Part shown: positions 35,807 through 35,841 of the stretch, in pieces
Position numbering within the stretch: the first letter of the stretch is position 1
How the letters are laid out: the number at the start of each line of letters is the position of its first letter
DNA from: Trichlorobacter ammonificans
Lineage (GTDB): Bacteria > Desulfobacterota > Desulfuromonadia > Geobacterales > Pseudopelobacteraceae
DNA length: 64,000 nt
Assembly (NCBI RefSeq): GCF_933509905.1
Contig: NZ_OW150024.1
Location: forward strand, 496,001-560,000
Direction of reading: 5' to 3'
The notes under the pieces: generated by a model
Databases searched by the model: none
Seen by the model: only the letters and a program-made list of their open reading frames with translations
Told to the model about the DNA's origin: nothing
Translations under genes and position numbers: made by a program

Positions 35807-35841
35807 TTGTATACAGTATGCAAAAGGCCTGAAGCTGTCAA
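35807..35841 (-). promoter_or_regulatory. icd promoter with overlapping palindromic operator
   Basis: On the minus strand TTGACA (35836-35841) and TACTGT (35813-35818) are 17 bases apart. The -10 box lies inside a 17-base near-palindrome TTGCATACTGTATACAA (35807-35823), arms matching at seven of eight positions. This is a good place for repressor control. The leader to the icd ATG is about 165 bases. Two copies of AGGCCTGAA flank the palindrome. The regulator is unknown. Confidence 0.65.

Follow-up and report, generated by a model that had tools for sequence, protein, structure and literature searches.

A conserved operator on the icd promoter of Trichlorobacter ammonificans and its probable GntR/FCD repressor

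Regulators described for acetate-oxidation genes

The described regulator closest to the one considered here is GSU3370, a GntR family protein of G. sulfurreducens. According to PMC10599522, which cites Ueki and Lovley (2010) on this point, it binds at the promoter of gltA. That 2023 paper describes little as being known of how GSU3370 works, and the part of its text available to us states no operator or regulon for it. HgtR (GSU3364) of G. sulfurreducens is hydrogen-induced and, in excerpts of two papers, reported to down-regulate gltA, atpG, and nuoA (PMC7726332, PMC7894505); an excerpt of a third describes an enhancer-binding protein gene upstream of hgtR and a predicted RpoN promoter (PMC2725144). 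Members of the FadR subfamily, such as PdhR, LldR, PrpR, and GntR, combine GntR and FCD domains, respond to organic acids, and recognize sites with GT/AC pairs 2 to 3 nt apart, TKGT/ACMA boxes, and extra half-sites 7 to 12 nt away, as set out in the part of PMC4494728 that covers them.

We analyzed an operator-like palindrome on the icd promoter of T. ammonificans, found in a window of 64,000 nucleotides (the whole stretch of DNA considered), and a GntR/FCD protein whose gene bears the same kind of site. The protein and the site share with the FadR subfamily the domain pair and the GT-AC spacing, and the two GTATAC cores fit the pattern of extra half-sites described there (PMC4494728, in part). 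The 17-mer is, however, longer than a single classical site of that subfamily, and one regulator would here span TCA-cycle enzymes, complex I, and ATP synthase. Like GSU3370, the protein belongs to the GntR family, and gene order suggests that the two are probably orthologs. HgtR resembles it in having targets that overlap the site-bearing genes but, judged by synteny, appears to differ as a ribbon-helix-helix-like protein behind an RpoN-type promoter. The regulator family and one target, gltA, were already known; what we add is a conserved operator and a regulon. In the open-licence literature searched, apart from the statement on GSU3370, neither the 17-mer nor a GntR regulon turned up for this order; Ueki and Lovley (2010), which lies outside that scope, may contain part of it.

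The icd promoter and its operon

The palindrome, TTGCATACTGTATACAA, lies on the minus strand at 35807–35823 of the window; it is odd and near-perfect, with a single mismatched arm position, and contains two GTATAC cores 7 bp apart. We annotate it as a 17-bp operator with the consensus TTGTATACTGTATACAA, on the strength of its sequence, its family within the genome, and its conservation. By chance, 0.01 matches with at most 3 mismatches would be expected in the 64-kb window (100 shuffles), which upholds the palindrome first noted on this promoter by a sequence-only reading of the window. The promoter that this reading had proposed, TTGACA-N17-TACTGT, was likewise recovered on the minus strand with both boxes at that spacing. 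The −35 box (TTGACA, 35836–35841) is supported by its sequence and by a distance to the operator that is conserved in relatives, while the putative −10 box (TACTGT, 35813–35818), within the operator and behind a spacer of 17, is placed by the conserved spacing. TACTGT matches TATAAT at just 3 of 6 positions, and because of this poor −10 box, a scan for the sigma-70 consensus did not list the icd promoter. A plasmid search with the icd promoter gave no match.

The gene order downstream, all on the minus strand, indicates that the promoter serves a TCA-cycle operon. It begins with icd, encoding a monomeric NADP isocitrate dehydrogenase (33415–35640; TIGR00178, 1279.9 bits for 33436–35640), for which we take the ATG at 35640 as the start, the mechanically called reading frame beginning further upstream. 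Next are mdh, encoding malate dehydrogenase (32335–33300; NF004863, TIGR01763), a gene for a korD-like ferredoxin subunit (32011–32316; best match OorD, under the curated cut-off), korA, encoding the alpha subunit of a 2-oxoacid:acceptor oxidoreductase (30857–31990; NF006412, 582 bits), and the probable korB (30033–30854) and korC (29456–30004), both read from sequence and gene order. The motif had also been expected at korD; the operon does carry the site, but korD lies inside the icd operon and has no site of its own.

Two further elements near the operator appear less meaningful. Copies of the direct repeat AGGCCTGAA are present on the plus strand at 35792–35800 and 35825–35833, and these had been suggested to add a second regulatory layer. 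Among the 48 upstream sequences of icd, that of T. ammonificans alone has the repeat close to the operator, and with the copies not conserved, we rejected this role and judged the first copy not functional. A weak second operator-like copy, absent from the sequence-only reading, lies on the minus strand at 35715–35731, some 80 bp past the inferred transcription start; it scores 9.9 and contains ATACAGTATG at 35719–35728. No comparable copy was found in the sister sequence L222, and none stands out at that place in relatives; this one may be due to chance.

A site family in the genome and in relatives

When one mismatch to the 13-bp core was allowed, the 3.06 Mb genome gave 15 forward and 19 reverse matches, many sites matching on both strands, against 2 forward and 3 reverse matches for the reversed pattern used as a control. 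The full 17-mer, at no more than 3 mismatches, occurs at nine sites compared with none for the reversed control. Seven of the nine are located upstream of icd, gltA, acnB, nuoA, atpF, an oxidoreductase gene, and gntR; sites at 276992, which falls within an ORF, and at 1197617 were excluded from the regulon. The same scan bears out the forecast that the motif would occur upstream of gltA, nuo, and atp genes. The product of the oxidoreductase gene resembles the small subunit of glutamate synthase with a NuoF-like N-terminus, and we take it to be SfrB-like. A weaker operator-like site was seen upstream of a class I fumarase gene. Within the window, another weaker operator-like sequence, CTGGATACTGTATGCCC (22089–22112, score 15.7), sits where a gene of the UPF0114 family begins and could be a chance occurrence.

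In relatives, icd, gltA, and gntR were located by protein search, and the counts for these three genes are therefore not selected for the motif. A site scoring at least 18 was present upstream of icd in 45 of 48 distinct sequences, the three under the cut-off (G042, 14.1; G044, 11.2; G036, 7.8) all belonging to genus g10. Upstream of gltA, 46 of 50 sequences passed, with G022 (12.8) and the g10 genomes G036, G039, and G044 below, and every one of the 95 distinct gntR upstream sequences carries a site. For comparison, a score of 20 arises about twice per million positions in random sequence of 40% GC. The upstream sets dropped tblastn rows that started beyond residue 25, had less than 50% identity, or left fewer than 60 bases upstream, and L055 was excluded since its upstream sequence was too short. 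Absence of the motif upstream of icd in relatives had been named beforehand as counter-evidence; on this sequence half of the test, the motif was found in those 45 of 48.

Genome-wide scans of five other genomes (G005, G030, G040, G045, and G059), allowing at most 2 mismatches, gave 33 sites versus 5 for the reversed control. Among these, 29 fall at icd (5), gntR (5), nuoA (4), sdhC/frdC-like genes (4), gltA (3), atpF (3), the SfrB-like locus (3), and acnB (2), and the remaining four are at L258, L269, L272, and L276. The nuoA, acnB, atpF, fumarase, and sdhC sites came from motif scanning and are to that extent motif-selected; for the sdhC/frdC-like genes, family-library support is confined to the L274 copy. 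At the SfrB-like locus, the gene and a divergent neighbor share one operator between them (L266, L267, L270, and L001). The divergent gene, of about 375 codons, had no family match in Pfam (L001 copy) or NCBIfam (L266 copy).

The placement of the site relative to the promoter is also conserved. At icd, the gap between TTGACA (at most 1 mismatch) and the operator that follows it measures exactly 12 nt in 43 of the 46 distinct upstream sequences scoring at least 12, and 13 nt in the other three; at gntR, the distance is exactly 4 nt in 93 of 95. Owing to these fixed distances, the operator is taken to cover the −10 region at both genes. At gltA, judged by eye, it starts about 11 nt or slightly more past a TATAA-like −10 box. 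No operator upstream of the −35 box was seen in the printed rows for icd, gntR, or gltA. A 17-mer that overlaps the −10 box (icd, gntR) or follows it (gltA) is what would be expected of a repressor, and judged from sequence, the geometry is that of repression. The repressor-like operator that had been proposed for icd thus gains support from its position over the −10 box and its conservation, and the element appears to be a switch site common to most of the Geobacter relatives examined, with copies at genes of the TCA cycle, of complex I, and of ATP synthase as well as at one gntR gene.

The GntR/FCD protein, HgtR, and ownership of the site

The regulator gene that bears the site (L003:769–1449, minus strand) encodes a protein with GntR and FCD domains (PF00392, 62.4 bits; PF07729, 95.7 bits). 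Because its own gene carries the site seen at the target genes, this protein is the probable repressor of acetate oxidation. Across the icd, gltA, and gntR sites, the GT-AT-AC core hardly varies, and it fits the GT-N2/3-AC pattern of the FadR subfamily. Strong matches to gntR were found in 51 of 57 genomes, T. ammonificans included (a tally of 52 would add G034, whose match is a weak paralog only). Within family f3, 37 of 48 members have the gene. The gene precedes selA, as identified by the family library in L163 and by eye in L162 and L164. G059 shows the order gatCAB, gntR, hgtR candidate, with gntR placed after gatB on the way to hgtR, an order that fits the locus numbers given in the accessible parts of PMC2700814, PMC2725144, and PMC10599522; GSU3370 is six numbers from GSU3364, matching this order, and the GntR protein is therefore probably its ortholog. 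In five genomes (G010, G035, G037, G045, and G049), a second GntR/FCD paralog, about 28 to 33% identical, is encoded no more than about 4 kb from an additional gene for citrate synthase; this may be a methylcitrate (propionate) locus.

The gltA site co-occurs with gntR, being present in 50 of 53 genomes with the gene and 4 of 15 without it (Fisher 2.6e-7, uncorrected for kinship). When restricted to genomes at least 90% complete, 1 of 11 lacking gntR has the site; three of the four site-bearing genomes without gntR are incomplete (66, 74, and 78%). Genomes left out of the comparison were, among those with gntR, G001, G007, G014, and G042 (no gltA match), G015 and G024 (partial gltA), and the members of f3 that had no gltA search, and among those without it, G058 and G092 (no gltA match). 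Since clades without gntR are few and gltA has diverged in genera g27 and g18, where it is only about 60% identical, the correlation rests on perhaps two to three independent losses. In genus g10, G036, G039, and G044 have neither gntR at the selA locus nor a gltA site, while G042 retains a gntR that is 60% identical, together with its autosite, and has the weak icd site mentioned above. Other genomes depart from the pattern. G016 and G023 have gntR with a good autosite (28.9) and no gltA site. In G022, an in-frame TAA interrupts the gntR ortholog (G022:C31:64011–64652) in the late part of its FCD domain; the icd (24.9) and gntR (27.2) sites are good and the gltA site is weak, which possibly reflects an early stage of loss. 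G026, rated 100% complete, has no gntR at the selA locus or genome-wide at E 1e-20 and still has icd (27.0) and gltA (20.5) sites; this is an exception that we do not explain away.

An hgtR candidate, with its neighbor in L287:12557–15336, was located in G059 by way of the gatB anchor, using the locus numbers in the portion of PMC2700814 at hand. It encodes a 59-residue ribbon-helix-helix-like protein, which Pfam assigns to RHH_1 only below the cut-off, and its neighbor encodes an activator with Sigma54_activat and Fe_hyd_lg_C domains, the iron-only hydrogenase domain making this activator a plausible H2 sensor. The hgtR-like gene of T. ammonificans (L322, G000:C1:451500–455500) has a GAFTGA-type ORF upstream, and a TGGCAY-N5-WNGC element occurs in all 30 hgtR upstream sequences tested. 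With the hgtR candidate about 14 kb from gntR and beside a sigma-54 activator, we rejected on synteny the idea that the GntR protein is itself HgtR; judging by gene order, the two appear to be different proteins. Upstream of hgtR, weak operator-like sequences with scores of 13 to 17 were seen (L324, L322, L305, and L291), including AAGTATACGGCATTCAA in T. ammonificans (14.7) and one in G036 (16.6), which may perhaps reflect HgtR autoregulation or cross-control by GntR. At a shuffle rank of 0.05 or below (single-base shuffles), 7 of 30 hgtR promoters stood out, too weak a signal for us to claim them as members of the regulon.

It is conceivable, though unlikely, that the operator belongs to HgtR, with small ribbon-helix-helix dimers seated on the two GTATAC boxes, H2 as the donor, and GntR as a secondary factor or a target. 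The reported HgtR targets gltA, atpG, and nuoA coincide with site-bearing genes (PMC7726332, in part), and at E 1e-6 the hgtR candidate has a match in 56 of 57 genomes, counting T. ammonificans, with 54 of these matches reaching about 1e-13 or better. G026, with an HgtR match and sites and no gntR, also points toward HgtR, as do the weak sequences near some hgtR promoters. The g10 genomes show the opposite of G026: G036 and G044 have hgtR, yet no gltA site and low icd scores, so the site there follows gntR and not hgtR (G039 has no hgtR match). Only weak hgtR matches, to paralogs, exist in G016 and G023, yet the gntR autosite is intact in both, and these four genomes together lower the case for the site belonging to HgtR alone. 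A good copy is missing from most of the 30 sequences scored upstream of hgtR, the best there reaching 13.2. We consider HgtR a weaker candidate than the GntR/FCD protein.

Alternatively, both proteins might read one site, either in competition or by sharing it, GntR in response to a metabolite and HgtR in response to hydrogen, so that carbon and electron supply would converge there. The target genes held in common, the presence of both genes in most genomes searched, and a double-box 17-mer that could seat either protein all agree with such sharing, but the co-occurrence in g10 follows gntR rather than hgtR, and it is rare for two unrelated folds to read one 17-bp sequence; we regard it as less probable still than ownership by HgtR. 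The overlap of the palindrome with the −10 box, where TA-rich sequence is expected, might suggest that it simply arises from the AT-richness of the promoter and serves no regulator. The shuffled-window expectation and the nine-to-none genome count speak against this, as does a site downstream of the −10 box in gltA, and its bases are near-invariant over 45 icd, 46 gltA, and 95 gntR sites despite differing flanks. Conservation already contradicts such an origin, which we view as highly improbable.

A proposed repressor of acetate oxidation

The reading that we favor, with a probability of roughly 0.77, is that an autoregulated GntR/FCD repressor of the FadR subfamily, probably the ortholog of GSU3370, uses the palindrome as its operator and acts on acetate-oxidation genes. 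A dimer, or a pair, bound at the consensus site would cover the −10 box of the icd-mdh-korDABC promoter and block RNA polymerase, and the protein would likewise repress its own gntR-selA operon. Further targets would be gltA, acnB, nuo, and atp, probably the class I fumarase gene, and, in relatives, a gene for an sdhC/frdC-type cytochrome b. Binding of an organic acid, perhaps a tricarboxylate of the TCA cycle, in the pocket of the FCD domain would free the promoters of the repressor under demand for acetate flux. Judged from sequence, the core idea of the sequence-only reading appears to hold, and the switch may follow carbon or electron supply, as was proposed there.

The best PDB sequence match of the GntR protein is 7xp0/7xp1 (positions 10–204, E 1.3e-35). 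We take 7xp0 for PmiR, the sensor of 2-methylisocitrate in Pseudomonas aeruginosa; the title of the PmiR study reportedly states that it senses 2-methylisocitrate. The last FCD histidine of 7xp0 aligns here with an Asn that is invariant in 8 aligned sequences. A ligand related to isocitrate may be considered for the GntR protein, as a lead only.

More tentatively, and at less than even odds, one GntR/FCD repressor widespread in the order may run acetate oxidation as a single-input module that senses a TCA tricarboxylate, while HgtR, as a branch of its own that senses H2, would act on these genes too, joining carbon and electron supply at their promoters. The module would then comprise gltA, acnB, icd-mdh-kor, fumarase, succinate dehydrogenase, complex I, ATP synthase, and the SfrB-like NAD(P)H oxidoreductase. 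In metal-reducing, electrode-respiring relatives of Geobacter, oxidation of acetate by the TCA cycle feeds extracellular electron transfer. The analysis also sets the GntR protein apart from HgtR, although both seemingly act on shared targets, and a single conserved operator with a candidate repressor over both the cycle and the energy-conserving complexes offers a handle with which to test, and perhaps tune, this flux.
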